A stretch of 44,865 bases of DNA from Bacteroidota bacterium. Its GTDB lineage: Bacteria > Bacteroidota > Ignavibacteria > Kryptoniales > JAKASW01. This document shows positions 20,458 through 29,476 of this stretch, piece by piece. The notes beneath the pieces are model-generated. The model did no database searches. It saw only the letters and a list, made by a program, of their open reading frames with translations, and was not told the origin of the DNA. The position numbers and the translations under genes were made by a program. The first letter of the stretch is position 1. The number at the start of each line of letters is the position of its first letter. The stretch covers positions 1 through 44,865 of the forward strand of contig JAJZVO010000035.1 of NCBI GenBank assembly GCA_021845665.1, written 5' to 3'.

Positions 20458-22704
20458 CTATTCTGCTGGTGGCGACTCTCTCGGAACGAGTCTTCTGGAG
20501 GTGAAAGATTTCGAGCGGGCAGCCATAGTTGCATATTGGCTGTCTAATACTTCCGCCCCGTTTTGAGGCCGGACACGCACAAATGACCCATCAGGTTGTA
20601 GTTCTCTTGCCCTGCTAGTGTCCGCGAGAGCGGTGACCAGGACTTCCTCTTTGAGACTATCTATCATCACCGGGTCCTCAATCGGGAACATCAGCTCGAC
20701 TCGCTTGTAGAGGTTGCGGCTCATGAGATCGGCGCTGCTGAGATAAAGCTCCGGATTTCCCCCATTCTCGAAGTAAAACACGCGGCTGTGCTCAAGGAAG
20801 CGGCCGACGATGCTGATTACTCGAATCGTCTCGCTTATGCCTTTCACACCAGGCCGGAGCGAACAAATGCCGCGGACGATGAGCTCTATTTTCACCCCTG
20901 CCTTCGACGCGTCGTACAGCTTCTCTATCATCTGCACGTCGGTCAGGGAATTCATCTTCATGATGATGTGTCCCTGCTTGCCGGATCTGGCGTTTGCCAT
21001 CTCACGTTCGATGAGCAACGTGACGGCCTGTCTGAGTGAAACAGGTGCAACCGCGAGTTTCCTGTATGTTTCCTTGCACGAGTAGCCGGTCAGGTAGTTG
21101 AACACCTCCGTAACATCTTCTGCTATGTCCTCTCTGCACGTGAAGTAGTTTAGGTCGGTATAGATTTGAGCGGTGACCATATTGTAATTGCCCGTGCTAA
21201 GGTGGACGTACCGCCGCAGCCCATCGGGCTCCTTTCTGATAACGAGCGCCATCTTGGCGTGTGTTTTCAAACCGACGAGACCGTAGACCACATGTATCCC
21301 GGCGCGCTCGAGTTGCTTGGCCCAGCCGATGTTATTCTCTTCATCGAAGCGAGCCTTCAACTCCACAAGAACAGCAACCTGCTTGCCGTTCTCCGCGGCC
21401 CTGATGAGGAGCGGTATAAGCGGCGATTCCTTGCCGATCCTGTAAAGCGTTTGCTTGATTGCGAGAACGTTTGGGTCGTTGACGGCAGACTCGATGAACT
21501 GGACAACGGGGCTGAATGAATCGTAAGGAGCGTGCAGAACGATGTCGCGCCGCCGCATGGCCCCGAAAATATCTTCCCCCTCTTCGTCGAGTGAAAGCAT
21601 GGCGGGATGATATGGCGGATCCTTCAGATCGGGCCGCGGGAGCGAAAGCAGCTGCATGAGATGGCTCAGTCCGAGTGGCGGCTGAAGTTCGTAGACTCCG
21701 TCGGGGAGGACATCAAGGTTTTCGATTAGTATATCCCGGATCCGGGCCGGCATTCCTTCCTGAACGGCGACCCTTACTGCCGAACCATACCGCCTCATCC
21801 GGATAGACTCCTCGATCGAATATATCAGGTCCTCCGCCTCGTCCTCCTGAATTTCCATGTCCGCGTTGCGTGTCACCCTGAAAACGTAAGACTCCTTGAT
21901 CGTCATCCCCGGGAAGAGAAGGCTGAGATTCTCCGCGATAAGATCCTCGAGCCACACGAAACGGATCTGACTGGCGTCTTCACCCGGTATGTTTACGAGT
22001 CTCGGTATCACATCGGGTACTTTGATCCTGGCGAACCGCTCTTCGCCGCGTGGAGTAGATACGACTGCTGCGATATTCAGGCTCATGTTCGAGATATGAG
22101 GGAACGGATGGCCGGGGTCGAAAGCGAGAGGTGTCAGCACCGGGAATATGTCGCGGGCGAAATACTCGGAGAGTCTCGCACGTTCACCCTGGCGAAGTTC
22201 ACTCATCTTCAGAAGATGTATCCCGGCAGCGGTGAGCGCCGGGTGCAGGTCTTTCCAGAAGCATTCGCGCATACTCTTCATCATGACCGATGCCTGGTCG
22301 TGGATTGCCTTGAGCTGCTGGTCGGGTGTCATTCCATCCGGCGACAGCTCGACAAATCCCGCGCGTACCTGTTCCTGGATTCCCGCAACCCTTATCATGT
22401 AGAACTCGTCGAGATTGGAACCGACAATGGATAGGAACTTCACTCTCTCGAGCAGTGGATGCCGCGTGTCGCGAGCCTCTTCGAGCACGCGCTTGTTGAA
22501 CTCGAGCCAGCTTAGCTCACGGTTTATGTACAGAGCCGGGTCTAACGAATATCGGGTTTGAGGCACGGACTGGAAGGCCTTTTTGCCGCGAGGGCCGATC
22601 TCCCTCTTCCTCCGGTGCTTTTGGTTCGGAGCAAGCTTGGAAGTCTTGGCGGTAGGATCCCCCCTGCGTTGCTGCTCTCCGTCATGATTATCTGCTGGTA
22701 CCAT
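20458..22704 (-). CDS. ppk: Polyphosphate kinase 1
   Basis: Makes polyphosphate from ATP and can run in reverse. The 748 residues have the PPK1 N-terminal motif YINRELSWLEFNKRVL (about 59-74) and SNLDEFYMIRVAG near 96. The catalytic histidine is His482 in LKTHAKM, followed by HLSTGNYN (501-508). A second conserved histidine, His639, lies in FLEHSRVFYF. A hydrophilic, basic extension of about 50 residues precedes the family's usual start. The ATG has GAGAGGAA immediately upstream. The promoter (TTGACA, 17 bp, TACACT) overlaps a Pho-box-like repeat array, so induction under phosphate limitation is likely. Confidence 0.97.
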   Translation of the reverse strand: MVPADNHDGEQQRRGDPTAKTSKLAPNQKHRRKREIGPRGKKAFQSVPQTRYSLDPALYINRELSWLEFNKRVLEEARDTRHPLLERVKFLSIVGSNLDEFYMIRVAGIQEQVRAGFVELSPDGMTPDQQLKAIHDQASVMMKSMRECFWKDLHPALTAAGIHLLKMSELRQGERARLSEYFARDIFPVLTPLAFDPGHPFPHISNMSLNIAAVVSTPRGEERFARIKVPDVIPRLVNIPGEDASQIRFVWLEDLIAENLSLLFPGMTIKESYVFRVTRNADMEIQEDEAEDLIYSIEESIRMRRYGSAVRVAVQEGMPARIRDILIENLDVLPDGVYELQPPLGLSHLMQLLSLPRPDLKDPPYHPAMLSLDEEGEDIFGAMRRRDIVLHAPYDSFSPVVQFIESAVNDPNVLAIKQTLYRIGKESPLIPLLIRAAENGKQVAVLVELKARFDEENNIGWAKQLERAGIHVVYGLVGLKTHAKMALVIRKEPDGLRRYVHLSTGNYNMVTAQIYTDLNYFTCREDIAEDVTEVFNYLTGYSCKETYRKLAVAPVSLRQAVTLLIEREMANARSGKQGHIIMKMNSLTDVQMIEKLYDASKAGVKIELIVRGICSLRPGVKGISETIRVISIVGRFLEHSRVFYFENGGNPELYLSSADLMSRNLYKRVELMFPIEDPVMIDSLKEEVLVTALADTSRARELQPDGSFVRVRPQNGAEVLDSQYATMAARSKSFTSRRLVPRESPPAE

Positions 22705-22728
22705 TTCCTCTCGTCCTCGATAAAGATG

Positions 22729-22757
22729 AGTGTAAAATATCGCCGTTCCATTGTCAA
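22729..22757 (-). promoter_or_regulatory. ppk promoter
   Basis: On the minus strand, TTGACA (22752-22757) and TACACT (22729-22734) are 17 bp apart, giving a leader of about 18 bases that includes the ribosome site. The -35 hexamer lies inside the third Pho-type repeat, the arrangement in which PhoB contacts RNA polymerase in other bacteria. Confidence 0.6.
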
Positions 22758-22780
22758 TGACAAGTTAAGGAATTGTTAAG
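22748..22780 (-). promoter_or_regulatory. Pho-box-like array of three 11-bp repeats (ppk)
   Basis: On the minus strand three contiguous 11-bp units begin with CTTAAC (22775-22780), CTTAAC (22764-22769) and ATTGAC (22753-22758). The 11-bp direct-repeat layout is that of PhoB boxes. The same array occurs before pstS (27010-27053) and the porin gene (29444-29476) and at no other gene start I checked, so it is probably the phosphate-starvation operator. Confidence 0.75.
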
Positions 22781-22823
22781 CGATCTCCATGAAATCGCTC
22801 CATTTCGCTCTTTTTAGCCGAAT

Positions 22824-23312
22824 TCAACGTATAATTTGCGACGGGCCCATCAGCCATTCCAGCGTCGCACATTTACCGAATCGGAGCGAGTCGGCAGATA
22901 ACTTGCAGAGTCCTCCCTTCTTCAGTCTCAGGGACACGCCGTGCCCGCCGGATATGAGCGCCGAGATAAGCGCCGACAGGTTGGGCTCATGTCCGACTAG
23001 AAGTATCTTCTTCCTGCGGGAGTAATCTTCATTTAGCTCCTTCAGTATCGCGGCCGGTTCTCCGTCGGGTATGAGATTGGGACTAATGCTGATCAGTGAA
23101 GCGCACTCAAGAACTTCGCAGACTATTTCCGCGGTCTCTTTGGCTCGCCTGTATGGACTTGTTAAGATCGCATCGAACGAAAGGTCCATGCTTCCCATTC
23201 CGTTCGCGATCTTCTTCATCTTCTTCGTCCCGGCTTCGGTGAGAGGTCTATCCGCGTCTCTTGTTATTCCGGGTTCGGCTGCATCTCCGTGTCTCAATAA
23301 GTACAAATCCAA
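22824..23312 (-). CDS. sixA: SixA-type phosphohistidine phosphatase
   Basis: Histidine phosphatase superfamily, 162 residues. The catalytic RHG motif is at residues 7-9 in LYLLRHGDA, SPYRRAKETAE is near 52-62, and the second histidine sits in VGHEPNLSAL near 108. The short length and the spacing match SixA, which dephosphorylates phosphohistidine in signalling proteins, rather than phosphoglycerate mutase. The start is TTG with GGAG 7 bp upstream. It lies 23 bp after the CHAD gene and so probably belongs to the ppx-CHAD-sixA operon. A polyphosphate-related substrate is only a guess from context. Confidence 0.87.
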   Translation of the reverse strand: MDLYLLRHGDAAEPGITRDADRPLTEAGTKKMKKIANGMGSMDLSFDAILTSPYRRAKETAEIVCEVLECASLISISPNLIPDGEPAAILKELNEDYSRRKKILLVGHEPNLSALISALISGGHGVSLRLKKGGLCKLSADSLRFGKCATLEWLMGPSQIIR

Positions 23313-23335
23313 TTGTCTTCTCCGTGTATATAGAT

Positions 23336-24295
23336 CTATTTTACCCGTTTCCAGTATGTATCAAGTTCGCCTAACGTTGCAAGGAAAACTCTCAAGTCCT
23401 CGTCGAGGCGCCCTGTCATCAGTTGCACGACGGGACCGAACTGGTCAGGCGGCGTGTTGCCGCGTTTGATTTCCTTCTTTCGCGCTTTTCGTGCCTCCGT
23501 CGAAACCGAAGCAAGCAGGACTTCCGTGTCCTGGATGGTTCCCATCTTCAACTGGAACTCTCTCATTCGTTTCAACAAGCGATCGGACACACCCGGGAGT
23601 GTTGGCTTCAGGATTTCAATGGTATATCGAAAGCGTTTGAAGAGGAGCCTCAACCGGTGAACAATTTCGCATTTCTCCTTCGAATCGTTCGAAGCTCTCG
23701 CGACTTCCTTTCGAAGGGAATTCATCCTGAAGAAGACTTGCGAGAGCAGTCCGTGCAGTATCGACATCGCAACATCTTCCATCGATGGATCGACCAGGAC
23801 GTCGCTTATCTTTGACCTCAATATATCAAACTGCCGTTTCATCGGTTCTATATTTATCCGGTGAATTTCTTTCCGGGCGCGTTTCGACTGAATCGATTCC
23901 CGCGTAATCAGTTCACCGAGGAAAGGCGAAAGCACACCGAATCGAGCTGCGAGTTGCTGAACTTCGAGAATCTGCACCTGGGTATCTCTGAGTGCGCTGA
24001 GAGAATCCAACAGGGACTTCAGCTGTTTTCTGATATCCAGAGCTTCGCTGTTGGGAAGAAAATTGTCTATCATGTCGAGCAGTGCAATCAGGCGGCGCAT
24101 GGCTACCCTCAGGTCGTGAACGGCTTTCTCAGTGGGATTAGATCGTGCTCTTTCCGTTTGCCGTTCGAACTCTTCCCATCTTTCCGAAAGAGCCGAGTCG
24201 AATGTCGACCTCAATTCCGTAGGATTGTCACCGTCAGGATCGGCAAGGTGGTTAGTCGCAATCCTGCCGGACGGGCTTCGTGGGATCCCTTTCAC
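23336..24295 (-). CDS. CHAD domain protein
   Basis: All-helical protein of 319 residues with the conserved-histidine alpha-helical (CHAD) domain. It has VHDLRVAMRRLIALL near 59-73, LRDTQVQILEV near 97-108, and HRLRLLFKRFRYTIEIL near 220-236. These His/Arg/Lys-rich helices are what CHAD proteins use to bind polyphosphate and to settle on polyphosphate granules. The start is GTG with GAGAGGA just upstream. It is 7 bp from the end of ppx and close to ppk, which fits a polyphosphate role. No catalytic domain is fused. Confidence 0.9.
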   Translation of the reverse strand: MKGIPRSPSGRIATNHLADPDGDNPTELRSTFDSALSERWEEFERQTERARSNPTEKAVHDLRVAMRRLIALLDMIDNFLPNSEALDIRKQLKSLLDSLSALRDTQVQILEVQQLAARFGVLSPFLGELITRESIQSKRARKEIHRINIEPMKRQFDILRSKISDVLVDPSMEDVAMSILHGLLSQVFFRMNSLRKEVARASNDSKEKCEIVHRLRLLFKRFRYTIEILKPTLPGVSDRLLKRMREFQLKMGTIQDTEVLLASVSTEARKARKKEIKRGNTPPDQFGPVVQLMTGRLDEDLRVFLATLGELDTYWKRVK

Positions 24296-24302
24296 TATCC
24301 TC

Positions 24303-25817
24303 TCAGTCTTCGACCGATACTTTTACGCCAAAAATCTCTTCGAATAAGTCAGCCTTATTCATCAGGGCCCATTTTTCCAGGAGAAGGTCGCCCTCGCCGT
24401 GCAAATGGACGGTGAAATTCGGCTTCTTGTAATCGACGGTGAATGAGGTGACTCTTGATGCATGCTCATTATCTATCGCGTCCGCAAGCCGTAAGATCGC
24501 CGCAAGTTTCGAGACGACAATCCGATTCTTGGAGGAAAGGATACGGTAATGGTCATGCTGCATCTTAGGGAATGATTTCCTGTGGTATCTTGCAATGTTG
24601 GCGACGATCTGCATCTGTTCGCTGCTGAGTCCTATTACCGGCGTTGCGGTCAGGAGATAATAAGTGTGTTTATGATGGGCAGTCATTCCGATGTGGGTTC
24701 CGATATCGTGCAGCATCGCCGCCGCTTCGAGCAGGAGCCGGTGTTCGAGCGCAAGATTGTGAAGGCTCTTTGTCTGGTCGAAAAGCTCGAGCGCATATCG
24801 CGCCACGCTCACGCCATGTTGTTCATCGAACGAATATTTCCTGCCGATTTCGACCGCAGATGTCATCACCTGGTCCCGGTTGGAAGATCTTTGCTCGCCG
24901 AGTACGGCCTGTCCCATGTCGATCATCAGGCCTTCTTTCAATCCGACTCCCGGTACGATCACTTCTTCTATCCCTGCCACTTTTACAATCTCCTGGAGAA
25001 TGATCGATGCCGGGATAATCACGTCCGCACGGTCGGGCCGCAGCCGGATCTGCCCGACCCTCTCATCGAATGAGAGCGACATCAGTTTCTTCAACATCGC
25101 GTTCAGGTCGTCGCTGGAAAATGAACCGTTGCGTTCTTTGCCGAGGAGATCCTTCCGGAGAGCACCGAGTGCTTCAATGTTGCCGCCTGTGCCGACGCAA
25201 AGATCTATCTTCTTTCCACTGATCTCTTTCTTCAGCCTTCTTCGTGCGGCCTCAACATATTCCTGAACAAGAAGGTTGAACTTCTTCTCTCCCTGTTTTT
25301 TTTCCTCGAGCACCTGGAGGAGCCGTACCGCGCCGAGCCGGTAACTTTCAGTCGAGATAATGCTGCCGTCGACGGTCAGCGTGATTTCGGTGCTCCCTCC
25401 GCCGATATCGATCAGAAGTGCGGTCTTGTTTTTCAAATTCATCTTGTCGCCCACGGCAAGGTGAATGAGCCGCGCTTCCTCTTCGGGGTTTATGATTTCT
25501 ATTTCGATTCCGCAGGCGTGGGAGATGTTGTCCGCAAAAGAGTCACGGTTCATTGCCTCCCGGAGCGCGCTCGTTGCGACCGCTTTTGTGAACGTTACAT
25601 TGTTCCTGTCGATGGCCTCCCGAAACCGTTTGAATGCTTCGATAGCGGCTCCCATCGTCTCTTCCGAAATGACGCGTCCCGTAAATACGTCGCGCCCTAA
25701 TCTAACCGGCTCTCTGAAGTTGTCTGTGACTGTAACCTTTCGGTCGTTGTCGATTCGGCCGATAGATAATCTTATGGCATTCGAACCGATATCAATTGCG
25801 GCAAGTGTCGTTGGCAT
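24303..25817 (-). CDS. ppx: Exopolyphosphatase / pppGpp phosphatase (Ppx/GppA) with HD domain
   Basis: Hydrolyses polyphosphate from its ends, or the gamma phosphate of pppGpp. The actin-like fold has loop 1 AAIDIGSNAIRLSIG (6-20) and loop 2 LLIDIGGGSTEITL (about 133-146), with GTGGNIEALG near 200. The C-terminal half has an HD-type helical domain with LHDIGTHIGM near 370. The length of 504 is that of the long Ppx form. Sequence cannot separate Ppx from GppA; the neighbours ppk, CHAD and pstS favour polyphosphate. A sigma-70-like promoter sits so close that the mRNA may start at the ATG. Confidence 0.93.
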   Translation of the reverse strand: MPTTLAAIDIGSNAIRLSIGRIDNDRKVTVTDNFREPVRLGRDVFTGRVISEETMGAAIEAFKRFREAIDRNNVTFTKAVATSALREAMNRDSFADNISHACGIEIEIINPEEEARLIHLAVGDKMNLKNKTALLIDIGGGSTEITLTVDGSIISTESYRLGAVRLLQVLEEKKQGEKKFNLLVQEYVEAARRRLKKEISGKKIDLCVGTGGNIEALGALRKDLLGKERNGSFSSDDLNAMLKKLMSLSFDERVGQIRLRPDRADVIIPASIILQEIVKVAGIEEVIVPGVGLKEGLMIDMGQAVLGEQRSSNRDQVMTSAVEIGRKYSFDEQHGVSVARYALELFDQTKSLHNLALEHRLLLEAAAMLHDIGTHIGMTAHHKHTYYLLTATPVIGLSSEQMQIVANIARYHRKSFPKMQHDHYRILSSKNRIVVSKLAAILRLADAIDNEHASRVTSFTVDYKKPNFTVHLHGEGDLLLEKWALMNKADLFEEIFGVKVSVED

Positions 25818-25822
25818 ATATG

Positions 25823-25851
25823 AAATTATGCCCTTGCCTGTATTTTGTCAA
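25823..25851 (-). promoter_or_regulatory. ppx promoter, possibly leaderless
   Basis: On the minus strand TTGACA (25846-25851) and TAATTT (25823-25828) have a 17-bp spacer. The -10 element ends 5 bp before the ATG at 25815-25817, so transcription would begin at or within one base of the start codon. No ribosome site is visible between them. Confidence 0.55.
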
Positions 25852-25865
25852 ACGGAATAGATCTC

Positions 25866-26912
25866 TTACTTCAGTATGCTCTCACCGTTGTAAGTGACGG
25901 ATTTCAGCTTTTCGATATTGAGCTTTTGAATCCTGCCAGGAAGCGGCGCATAGTCGAGATCCGCAGAATACTTCTGACCTTCGGTTACCGCCCATCTCAT
26001 GAATTCGAGGACATCTTTGGCCTGGTTGTATTCAGGCTGATTCCTATATATGAGGAACCAGGTGGCGCTCGATATCGGGTAAGATGTTTTTCCTGGAGCA
26101 TTCGTTATCGAGAACCTCAAATCTTTCGGGAGCGTCTTTGCGGCGTTTGCAAGCGCTTCGGTCACTCCGGGAATTGAAGGGTGTACGTAGACGCCGTCGA
26201 CGTTTTTTATGTCCGCAAACGAAATGTCATTCTGAAGAGCGTAAATGAGTTCGACGTAGCCGATCGCCCCCGGAGTTCTCGAGACCTGTCCTGCGACTCC
26301 GTCGTTTCCTTTACCACCGATGCCTGCCGGCCAATCGAGGCTGGTCGACTTGCCGACCTTCTGATCCCATTCCGAACTGACTTTGGAGAGATAATCCGCA
26401 AAGATATAGGTTGTTCCGCTGCCGTCCGCACGATGGACGACCACAATCTTTGTCGCCGGGAGCTTGATTCCGGGATTGAGTGACATGATCCTGCTGTCAT
26501 TCCACGCCGATATTTTCCCGAGATAGATGTCTGCAATCGTTTTACCGTCGAACTTCAGATTCGCAGTCACACCGGGCAGATTGTAAACCACGACCACGGC
26601 ACCGAGTGTCTCTGGTATGTGAATGACATCGCCGTGCACCTTTTTCGCATCGGCCAACTGTTCCTCCGTCATCGGGGCATCGCTCGCGCCGAAGTTTACC
26701 GTTCCTGCGATGAGCTGCCTGATGCCTCCGCCGCTCCCGATCGCCTGGTAGTTGATCCGAACCCTTGGCTTAATTTTCTGGTATTCGCTGGACCATTTTG
26801 AAATGAGTGGGTATGGGAAAGTTGCACCTGCCCCATTGATCACTTCCTGCGCTTTCGCCGTGCCTATCGACAGAAGCACCGCTGTTAATACACTCACGAC
26901 TCGTCTTAGCAT
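25866..26912 (-). CDS. pstS: Periplasmic phosphate-binding protein PstS (copy 1)
   Basis: Substrate-binding protein of a PstSCAB-type phosphate importer, 348 residues. A signal peptide (about 1-21, cleavage after AKA) leads into NGAGATFPYPL. The phosphate-contact segments are GSGGGIRQL near 62, GASDAPM near 75 and RADGSGTTYIF near 160. CAGGAGA lies before the ATG. It has its own Pho-type repeat array upstream and is separated from the other pstS by a terminator. It is a clear tandem paralogue of 27200-28273, with long identical stretches. No lipobox is seen, so it should be soluble in the periplasm. Confidence 0.94.
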   Translation of the reverse strand: MLRRVVSVLTAVLLSIGTAKAQEVINGAGATFPYPLISKWSSEYQKIKPRVRINYQAIGSGGGIRQLIAGTVNFGASDAPMTEEQLADAKKVHGDVIHIPETLGAVVVVYNLPGVTANLKFDGKTIADIYLGKISAWNDSRIMSLNPGIKLPATKIVVVHRADGSGTTYIFADYLSKVSSEWDQKVGKSTSLDWPAGIGGKGNDGVAGQVSRTPGAIGYVELIYALQNDISFADIKNVDGVYVHPSIPGVTEALANAAKTLPKDLRFSITNAPGKTSYPISSATWFLIYRNQPEYNQAKDVLEFMRWAVTEGQKYSADLDYAPLPGRIQKLNIEKLKSVTYNGESILK

Positions 26913-26998
26913 ACTTAGTCTCCTGACTTTTTGTTATGATGTTCTAAACGCCGGAATGAGTCTAATATCGCGCACGATTTGCCCTTATGCACATCGAC

Positions 26999-27053
26999 AA
27001 TTTACCAAGTCAGGGTAACATATGTGTTAATTTTGGATTAAGGAATCGTGAAG
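26999..27053 (-). promoter_or_regulatory. Pho-box-like array and promoter of pstS copy 1
   Basis: On the minus strand 11-bp units start with CTTCAC (27048-27053), CTTAAT (27037-27042), ATTAAC (27026-27031) and a weaker TGTTAC (27015-27020). TAAATT at 26999-27004 lies 20 bp beyond the TTAACA of the third unit; the porin promoter has TAGATT at exactly the same distance. Same order and spacing as the ppk array. Confidence 0.7.
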
Positions 27054-27079
27054 GGAGGGAACCGGCGAAGCACAGCGAT

Positions 27080-27120
27080 CTTTCGAAGGTAGTCCGGATT
27101 CAGCCCGGTACCTTCGAAAG
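27080..27120. repeat. Perfect 12-bp inverted repeat between pstS genes
   Basis: CTTTCGAAGGTA (27080-27091) and its exact complement (27109-27120) enclose 17 bases, within which CCGG occurs twice and can pair as an inner stem. It lies just past the terminator of the upstream pstS and before the Pho array. No T-run follows on either strand, so it is not a plain intrinsic terminator; it could protect an RNA 3' end or bind a protein. Confidence 0.6.
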
Positions 27121-27128
27121 GTTTCCAT

Positions 27129-27167
27129 AAAAAAGCGGGGTCGCAGTTTTTACGCCGCGGACCCCGC
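27129..27167 (-). terminator. Intrinsic terminator after pstS copy 2
   Basis: On the minus strand GCGGGGTC (27160-27167) pairs with GACCCCGC (27135-27142) and is followed directly by six T. It ends the porin-pstS transcript 33 bp after the stop codon. A smaller CCCG/CGGG stem lies at 27178-27190 before it. Confidence 0.85.
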
Positions 27168-27199
27168 ATCCTCTTGCCCCGAAAAACGGGATTTAAATC

Positions 27200-28273
27200 T
27201 TAGTACAGTCTCTTTCCATTATAGTTTACTTTGCGGAGAAGGCCGAGCTCCATCTTCTGGATCGGTCCGGGAATAGGAGCGTAATCCAATGCAGGCTCCA
27301 TCTTCTGACCTTCGGTCAGGACCCAGTGAAGGAACTGGACTGTCTCATTGGCGATCTTGTAGCTTGTATAGTGTCCCTGGTTGACGTAGACAATGAGCCA
27401 TGTCGCGCTCGAGATCGGATAGGATGACTTTCCGGGAGCGTTCGTTATGGAGAACCTGAGGTCCTTCGGAACGATCTTAGCAGCATTGGCGGCCGCATCG
27501 CTGACGCTCTGGATGGTCGGGTGAATGAAGGCGCCCGCCTGGTTCTTCACAGCGCCGAACGGCACGTCGTTCTGAAGTGCGTAGATAAGGGTTACGTATC
27601 CGATCGAATAAGGAGTCTGCTCGATCTGTCCGGTGACTCCCTGGTTCCCTTTGGCTCCGATGCCGACCGGCCAGTCAACACTTGTGCCCCTGCCGACCTT
27701 TTTGTCCCACTGCTTTGACACTTTGCAGAGGAAGTCGACGAATATATATGTGTCGCCGCTGCCGTCGGAACGGTGGACCACGATAATCGGGCGGTCAGGA
27801 AGGTTCACGCCGGGGTTCAAAGCCTTCAGTTCGGGATCGTTCCATTTCGTGATCTGTCCCATGAAGATCTCAGCGATGACCGGCCCCGTGAACTTGAGAA
27901 TGCCCTTATAGCCCGGTATATGATAAGTAACCGCAACCGCACCCATGGCCTCCGGAAGGTGAACGACCGGGCCGTGTGCCTTTTCGGCCGCCGCGATCTG
28001 CTCGTTGTTGAGAGGCGCATCGCTGGCACCGATTTCTACCGTACCGGCTAGCAGCTGCTCGATTCCGCCGCCGCTTCCGATTGCCTGGTAGTTGAATTCA
28101 ATGTCCGGGTGCATCTTGTGGTACACGTCGGCCCATTTTGAAAACATCGGGTAGATGAAAGTCGATCCTGCGCCGTTGATGAGTGTCTGCGCGTTGACCA
28201 TCGCGGTCGAGGCAAACATGGCGACTATCGCGATCAAGACTTTTCCCGCAAGCGGGATCTTCGATTTAAGCAT
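27200..28273 (-). CDS. pstS: Periplasmic phosphate-binding protein PstS (copy 2)
   Basis: Second phosphate-binding protein, 357 residues. The signal peptide spans about 1-29 (cleavage after VNA) and the mature protein begins at NGAGSTFIYPMFSKW. It shares GSGGGIEQLLAGTV, IGASDAPL, RSDGSGDTYIF and SITNAPGKSSYPISSATW with copy 1. AAGGAG stands 6 bp before the ATG at 28273; a GTG one codon earlier is too close to the ribosome site. It follows the porin gene by 67 bp without a visible promoter, so porin and this pstS are probably one Pho-controlled operon. Confidence 0.93.
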   Translation of the reverse strand: MLKSKIPLAGKVLIAIVAMFASTAMVNAQTLINGAGSTFIYPMFSKWADVYHKMHPDIEFNYQAIGSGGGIEQLLAGTVEIGASDAPLNNEQIAAAEKAHGPVVHLPEAMGAVAVTYHIPGYKGILKFTGPVIAEIFMGQITKWNDPELKALNPGVNLPDRPIIVVHRSDGSGDTYIFVDFLCKVSKQWDKKVGRGTSVDWPVGIGAKGNQGVTGQIEQTPYSIGYVTLIYALQNDVPFGAVKNQAGAFIHPTIQSVSDAAANAAKIVPKDLRFSITNAPGKSSYPISSATWLIVYVNQGHYTSYKIANETVQFLHWVLTEGQKMEPALDYAPIPGPIQKMELGLLRKVNYNGKRLY

Positions 28274-28340
28274 CACATGCTCCTTTTTAGTTTTGGATTT
28301 GTCAATAAGAACAAAGAATCGCGAATAACTGTTTCAAATT

Positions 28341-29396
28341 CTAGAAATCGAAGTAGTAGGTGACCCTGTACATGACATCGGGCTTGGAACCGCTCACTCC
28401 ATAGGTAGTATACTCCAAGTTGGGCATGAAGTGAACGTGGTCGTTTACTTTGTAGTCCAGCGCCGCCATGAGGAAATTCTGGGTGCAGTAGAGAAATTGA
28501 TTGGATCCGAGCGTGACGTTCTGGTACGTCTTGTCCGAGTTGCCGTCATAAATGTCGTATCTGCCGACCAGGTTAAGATCCTTGACGAGCGTGACCCACC
28601 CGTTGAAGCTGATGCCGTTGCGATTGAGATTGGAACCGTCGGGGTTTGATTTCGCCACGGTATTCACGAAACCCTGCACACCGATGGAGTAAGTCTTCGT
28701 CTTGTAGTTCAATATGAGGTCGCCGGTGGAGATATCCTTCTGGTCCGGTTCTCCGGAGTATTGTCCATCGAGGTATACGGTAAACCCGTTGACAGTATAA
28801 TCCAGGAAGAGATATGCGCTTTTGTACCTGAAACTCGGATCGAGATTTGTCGGCGTGCCGTTGGCGTTGTCGGGATACAGGCCGCCGCTGTTGCCGCTGT
28901 TGTTGCCAACAAGAAGCCCTGCTGAGAATTCGTGCGTGAATCTCTCCGTCAGTGATACCCCTAAGTCTCTCGAAGCGCTAATACCGTGCAGGTCCTGGAT
29001 GGTCTTCTCAAGAGGCCGATACCCGAATAGTGGTTCCGCAAAATTGATGTTCCATGTTCCCTGCAGACCGATAATGAGGTCGCTGTTGGGGATGGGATTG
29101 TGCCAGTCGATGAAGGCATCCTTAACCCATGTCGAAAGTTTACCATTGCCGAGATTTGAGGCTGTAGGATCTGATTCCAGACGCATCCTTGCCCAGAAAT
29201 CATTAGTTATGTTATAGTGCGCCGTAAGGTAGATCCTCCGGTATTCAAAAGCCTGCATGTTGTTCTGCGAAGGTACGTGATCCTGCGCGAGGTAGTAGTA
29301 ATCTCCGAACATGAGGCCGGAAAATTTCGGGAGGTTCTGTGCGAAAGCCGCTCCCGCAAACAGCAAGAGAGCCATAAAGGCGTAGATTGATCGCAT
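28341..29396 (-). CDS. Outer-membrane porin, probably phosphate-related
   Basis: Beta-barrel outer-membrane protein of 351 residues. A signal peptide (about 1-20, ending AFA) is followed by alternating amphipathic strands rich in Tyr, Asn and Gly, and it ends YYFDF with the terminal Phe expected for BAM-dependent assembly. An upstream in-frame start at 29432 would add 12 charged residues; the ATG at 29396 has AAAGGAG 9 bp before it and gives a proper signal peptide. It resembles OprP/OprO-type porins in size and strand pattern, but selectivity cannot be read from sequence. The Pho-type array upstream and pstS downstream suggest phosphate or polyphosphate uptake. Confidence 0.8.
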   Translation of the reverse strand: MRSIYAFMALLLFAGAAFAQNLPKFSGLMFGDYYYLAQDHVPSQNNMQAFEYRRIYLTAHYNITNDFWARMRLESDPTASNLGNGKLSTWVKDAFIDWHNPIPNSDLIIGLQGTWNINFAEPLFGYRPLEKTIQDLHGISASRDLGVSLTERFTHEFSAGLLVGNNSGNSGGLYPDNANGTPTNLDPSFRYKSAYLFLDYTVNGFTVYLDGQYSGEPDQKDISTGDLILNYKTKTYSIGVQGFVNTVAKSNPDGSNLNRNGISFNGWVTLVKDLNLVGRYDIYDGNSDKTYQNVTLGSNQFLYCTQNFLMAALDYKVNDHVHFMPNLEYTTYGVSGSKPDVMYRVTYYFDF

Positions 29397-29421
29397 GAAA
29401 GTGTTCTCCTTTTTTGCAAAC

Positions 29422-29476
29422 AATCTACCCATGCGCTATAACCTCGACGTTAATAGTGTGTTAAGGATTTGTGAAG
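29422..29476 (-). promoter_or_regulatory. Pho-box-like array and promoter of the porin gene
   Basis: On the minus strand 11-bp units at 29444-29476 start with CTTCAC (29471-29476), CTTAAC (29460-29465) and ATTAAC (29449-29454). TAGATT at 29422-29427 lies 20 bp beyond the TTAACG of the third unit, matching the pstS geometry. The ATG is 26 bp beyond that element. Confidence 0.7.

Follow-up and report, generated by a model that had tools for sequence, protein, structure and literature searches.

The window, by which we mean the whole stretch of 44,865 nucleotides that was analyzed, carries on its minus strand an outer-membrane porin gene (28341..29396), followed, in what the gene order suggests to be the same operon, by a second copy of pstS (pstS2; 27200..28276; TIGR00975, 366.1 bits). 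Farther downstream lie the first copy of this gene (pstS1; 25866..26912; TIGR00975, 390.7 bits) and the polyphosphate kinase 1 gene ppk (20458..22704; TIGR03705, 896.9 bits, above the cut-off). Between pstS1 and ppk, and again on the minus strand, ppx (24303-25817), a CHAD-domain gene (23336-24295) and a sixA-like gene (22824-23312) are found; as judged from the gene order, these three genes (22824..25817) are probably co-transcribed with pstS1. The co-directional arrangement of pstS1, ppx, the CHAD-domain gene, the sixA-like gene and ppk (20458-25817) has the appearance of a polyphosphate gene cluster situated behind Pho boxes.

The porin has no match in Pfam or NCBIfam. Its predicted fold, modeled with modest confidence (mean pLDDT of 61), comprises a signal helix and about 16 strands, and its Foldseek neighbors are consistently general porins. 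Going by this model, the product of the reading frame at 28341-29396 may belong to a porin family that has no name as yet and is linked to phosphate control. The congeners align from position 29396, and translation is therefore likely to start there, after AAGGAGAA, and not at 29432. Between pstS2 and the promoter region of pstS1, a long inverted repeat (CCTTTCGAAGGTA...TACCTTCGAAAG; 27080-27130) was noted by eye; it is perhaps the terminator of the porin operon.

Three arrays of direct repeats, all on the minus strand, precede ppk, pstS1 and the porin-pstS2 operon. Upstream of ppk (22753..22780), the hexamers CTTAAC (22780-22775), CTTAAC (22769-22764) and ATTGAC (22758-22753) are separated by five nucleotides each and match the scan pattern described below exactly; no fourth unit can be recognized at this site. 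The pstS1 array (27015..27053) consists of CTTCAC (27053-27048), CTTAAT (27042-27037), ATTAAC (27031-27026) and a weaker TGTTAC (27020-27015), and that of the porin-pstS2 operon (29438..29476) of CTTCAC (29476-29471), CTTAAC (29465-29460), ATTAAC (29454-29449) and GGTTAT (29443-29438). The step of 11 bp is exact in all three arrays, and the self-similarity of each site is maximal at a period of 11. A previous sequence-only reading of this DNA had reported these arrays with the hexamers CTT(A/C)AC, CTTAA(C/T) and ATT(A/G)AC, and both their places and their sequences proved accurate. Its assignment of a fourth, weaker unit to the pstS site also stands, but this unit is not peculiar to pstS1 since the porin array possesses one as well, which is conserved in the congeners as xGTYAC/xGTYAA.

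The arrays stand in a fixed relation to the putative core promoters. A TAAATT box at pstS1 (26999..27004, minus strand) and a TAGATT box at the porin (29422..29427, minus strand) are both of the TAnnTT type of -7/-10 element, in keeping with the -7 consensus TAnnTTTG of Bacteroides and Flavobacterium promoters (PMC4747536; PMC9723704). In each case 21 bases, not the 20 bp previously counted, intervene between the third unit and this box, and the TAnnTT start lies at exactly this distance in 36 of the 37 pstC, pstS1 and porin promoters of this genome and its congeners. With such a spacing, 10 nt separate the end of the conserved fourth hexamer from TAnnTT, as seen directly at pstS1. The ppk promoters do not follow the 21-nt rule; there, the third unit contains the -35 element instead, as had been proposed. 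The likely ppk promoter (22729..22757, minus strand) can be read directly as TTGACA (22757-22752), a spacer of 17 nt and TACACT (22734-22729), and a TA(C/G)AC(T/A) box is retained at the ppk loci L114 and L115.

We scanned both strands of the assembly from which the window derives (4.64 Mb in 135 contigs, 95.6% complete) with the pattern CTTMAC-N5-CTTAAY-N5-ATTRAC and used the reversed pattern as the control. Allowing up to two mismatches, only four matches were recovered, every one of them exact: the three arrays of the window and a fourth upstream of pstCAB, about 0.0008 exact matches being expected by chance. The reversed pattern yielded four matches at up to two mismatches and none at up to one. 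Within the window, the next-best match after the three arrays already carries four mismatches. When scored with a matrix trained exclusively on other genomes, the four sites reach 34-40 bits, whereas no site in 10 Mb of Markov sequence scores above 17.8. A looser pattern at two mismatches gave no excess over its reversed control, and we make no claim for weak sites. The scan had been suggested by the sequence-only reading, which had not seen the pstCAB locus; all matches in the genome proved to lie upstream of phosphate genes.

The fourth match (C31:22764-22791) did not contribute to the definition of the pattern. The start of pstC lies 33 bp downstream of it, followed by pstA and pstB, all three scoring above their NCBIfam cut-offs. 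Unit numbers range from three to four in the arrays of the window to about six at pstC, where (L005:8765-8814, on the same contig) two extra units, GTTAAC and CATCAA, are present on the upstream side; the units of this promoter are mostly conserved in congeners.

In 12 congeners, the pattern found 20 matches at up to one mismatch and the reversed control none. Eighteen of these are located upstream of pstC, pstS, the porin or ppk; one of the remaining two falls within a long reading frame, and the other precedes a TonB-dependent receptor in L081, a genome whose pstC array is approximately 5 kb away. For the converse test, each orthologue was located and its upstream DNA inspected for an array. 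Arrays were present before the porin in each of the 13 examined genomes of this genus, before pstC in all 11 genomes in which the gene was found, convincingly before pstS1 in 12 of 13, and before ppk in about five of eight; the ppk array is kept by the closest congeners and has been lost or has decayed in several others. No array was found upstream of pstS2 in 12 genomes, the best match there having six to eight mismatches, and we consequently rejected pstS2 as an independent Pho target. As the second gene of the porin operon that lacks an array of its own, pstS2 serves as a natural negative control.

A candidate for the cognate regulator is encoded on contig C92, where phoB (L008:16632-17315), phoR and phoU follow each other in this order. 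PhoU scores above its NCBIfam cut-off, and PhoR falls below the equivalog cut-off with PnpS/PhoR as its best model. Because PhoB also scores below the equivalog cut-offs (TIGR02154, 245.8 vs. 296.2; NF053854, 238.3 vs. 270), its name rests on the best-matching model, which is PhoB, on the gene order and on the recognition helix. Its DNA-binding domain aligns with structures of the Escherichia coli PhoB protein (E of about 2e-21), and the core of the recognition helix, RTVDVHIR, is identical in both proteins. An array was sought upstream of phoB and none was found, the best match having seven mismatches.

Considering the repeats, which are restricted to phosphate genes and conserved, together with the fixed promoter spacing and the presence of phoB-phoR-phoU, we are highly confident in predicting that the arrays serve as PhoB operators (Pho boxes), and hence represent a known kind of switch in a little-studied lineage of the Bacteroidota. 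We infer from these observations that PhoB binds to the arrays, that they respond to phosphate, and in which direction they exert control. The same interpretation, a Pho regulon operator, had been advanced in the sequence-only reading; it gains support from the genome scan and from the arrays kept in the pst and porin, and less often in the ppk, promoters of relatives, and the motif is not scattered over many unrelated genes.

Pho boxes are built from direct-repeat units of 11 nt whose sequence varies between species (PMC4415409). The E. coli Pho box shares this architecture and leaves about 10 bp between its end and the -10 element (PMC1906773), but its unit is CTGTCAT as compared with the CTTAAC-like unit found here, and our pstC site has about six units. 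In cyanobacteria, the SphR Pho box consists of at least three direct repeats of CTTAACCT, each of 8 bp with a 3-bp linker, and precedes pstS, pstCAB, sphX and phoA; the box of Synechocystis pstS2, for instance, reads CTTAATTC-tat-CTTAATTT-cga-CTTAATCA (PMC1906773). Both the CTTAAC(CT) unit and the 11-bp step thus recur in the arrays of the window, although these come from another phylum, have ATT(A/G)AC as their third unit and, at the pst and porin promoters, are locked at 21 nt to the Bacteroidota TAnnTT element. A regulator of the Bacteroidota, PhoP of Riemerella anatipestifer, likewise has a similar motif, with TTTAACA as the most conserved bases in DAP-seq, but its 583 peaks represent a far broader set than our four strong sites, and it goes by a different name (PMC9603813). 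In view of the cyanobacterial consensus and the Riemerella motif, the earlier suggestion that the hexamer is a lineage-specific variant had to be abandoned. In the open-licence literature searched, we found no earlier description of the array in this lineage and no Bacteroidota Pho-box consensus beyond the Riemerella motif.

A close functional parallel is offered by Bacteroides fragilis, a member of the same phylum. In this species, PhoB binds to the pstC promoter in EMSA experiments, and the PhoB-dependent genes include pstS, pstCAB, a ppk, a ppx and the gene for a polyphosphate-selective porin (PMC3547664). This is nearly the gene set found behind our arrays; the comparison covers the gene set and binding to the pstC promoter.

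Spacers rich in A and T abound in TTAAC-like hexamers, and the looser pattern at two mismatches did no better than its control. One might hence view the arrays as functionless similarities that arose by chance or from base composition. We give this explanation practically no credence in the face of four exact matches vs. 0.0008 expected, an independent site at pstCAB, conservation across 13 genomes, the fixed spacing and the negative control provided by pstS2. A different regulator of the OmpR family that reads 11-bp TTAAC direct repeats and whose targets are phosphate genes deserves somewhat more attention. Members of this family have a common DNA-binding fold, and many of them score well against the PhoB protein of this genome, which itself stays below the equivalog cut-offs. 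Related response regulators, such as those of the ArcA type, can bind similar TTAAC direct repeats, and the motif of Riemerella PhoP resembles that of E. coli ArcA (PMC9603813). However, nearly all close matches are at phosphate genes, the genome contains phoB-phoR-phoU, the RTVDVHIR helix core is identical to that of E. coli PhoB, and nearly the same gene set is under PhoB control in B. fragilis (PMC3547664), so that we deem another regulator very improbable.

The ppk array poses a question of its own, as it might be a repressor site covering the -35 box, with activation confined to the pst and porin promoters. Its TTGACA lies inside the third unit at 17 nt from TACACT, and its spacing is unlike that of the other promoters. 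As a rule, though, Pho boxes that overlap the -35 element are activating. Moreover, one ppk of B. fragilis is induced 24-fold in a PhoB-dependent manner at low phosphate (PMC3547664). Repression at ppk is accordingly an unlikely, though not a far-fetched, alternative.

With the arrays taken as PhoB operators, the following regulatory model can be proposed. At low phosphate, PhoR, together with sensing by Pst/PhoU, would phosphorylate PhoB, which would then bind head-to-tail on a single face of the DNA, each 11-bp unit accommodating one monomer. The last of the four units lies 10 nt ahead of the Bacteroidota TAnnTT box at pstS1, the porin-pstS2 operon and pstCAB; this fourth unit would stand in for a -35 element, with RNA polymerase being recruited by PhoB. 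At ppk, where the third unit contains a good -35 sequence, the promoter would be usable by itself, and PhoB would modulate its activity, most likely by activation. The resulting regulon would unite entry across the outer membrane (the porin), capture (two PstS proteins), uptake across the inner membrane (PstCAB) and the storage of polyphosphate (ppk and probably ppx).

Arrays of this type extend beyond the genus. Among 395 Bacteroidota genomes, 44 possess an exact CTTAAY triple, with about 67 matches vs. about seven for the reversed control, and in families elsewhere in the class and the phylum the arrays are positioned upstream of pstS, pstC, porins and TonB receptors. Among the loci that we read, many arrays lie before the gene for a TonB-dependent receptor that bears a carboxypeptidase-regulatory-like (CarboxypepD_reg) domain at its N-terminus (L164, L168-L172, L174-L177, L179, L181, L183, L184, L187 and L188; also L067, L068 and L077); next come genes for large secreted proteins that are related to each other and, in one case, pstS and phoU. 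On the basis of this gene arrangement, the receptor and secreted-protein operon is a candidate phosphate-starvation uptake operon. In Flavobacterium, transcript and protein measurements have revealed TonB receptors adjoining lipoproteins that are induced by low phosphate (PMC8115612). The balance tilts slightly toward the view that a large part of the Bacteroidota uses the CTTAAC array as its general Pho box, with the TonB-receptor and large-secreted-protein operon as its main target in many families. If so, this receptor family would be a phosphate-starvation uptake system that can be identified by sequence alone.

Two further sets of loci are recorded here as observations. In genomes of family f38 (L205-L209), no phosphate gene directly follows the exact arrays; reading frames resembling alanine dehydrogenase are located at a distance of 0.5-4.5 kb from them. 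At L078 and L173, the arrays are followed by genes that we named by eye, encoding a two-domain acyltransferase-like protein and a phosphonate-binding-protein-like product; the former is perhaps involved in lipid replacement under low phosphate.

Collectively, our analysis allows the phosphate-starvation regulon of an uncultured lineage of the Bacteroidota to be defined by sequence, and it indicates that a common switch for the porin, PstS, PstCAB and polyphosphate kinase is probable. The motif can be used across the phylum to find phosphate-regulated genes of unknown function, such as those for TonB receptors and secreted proteins.
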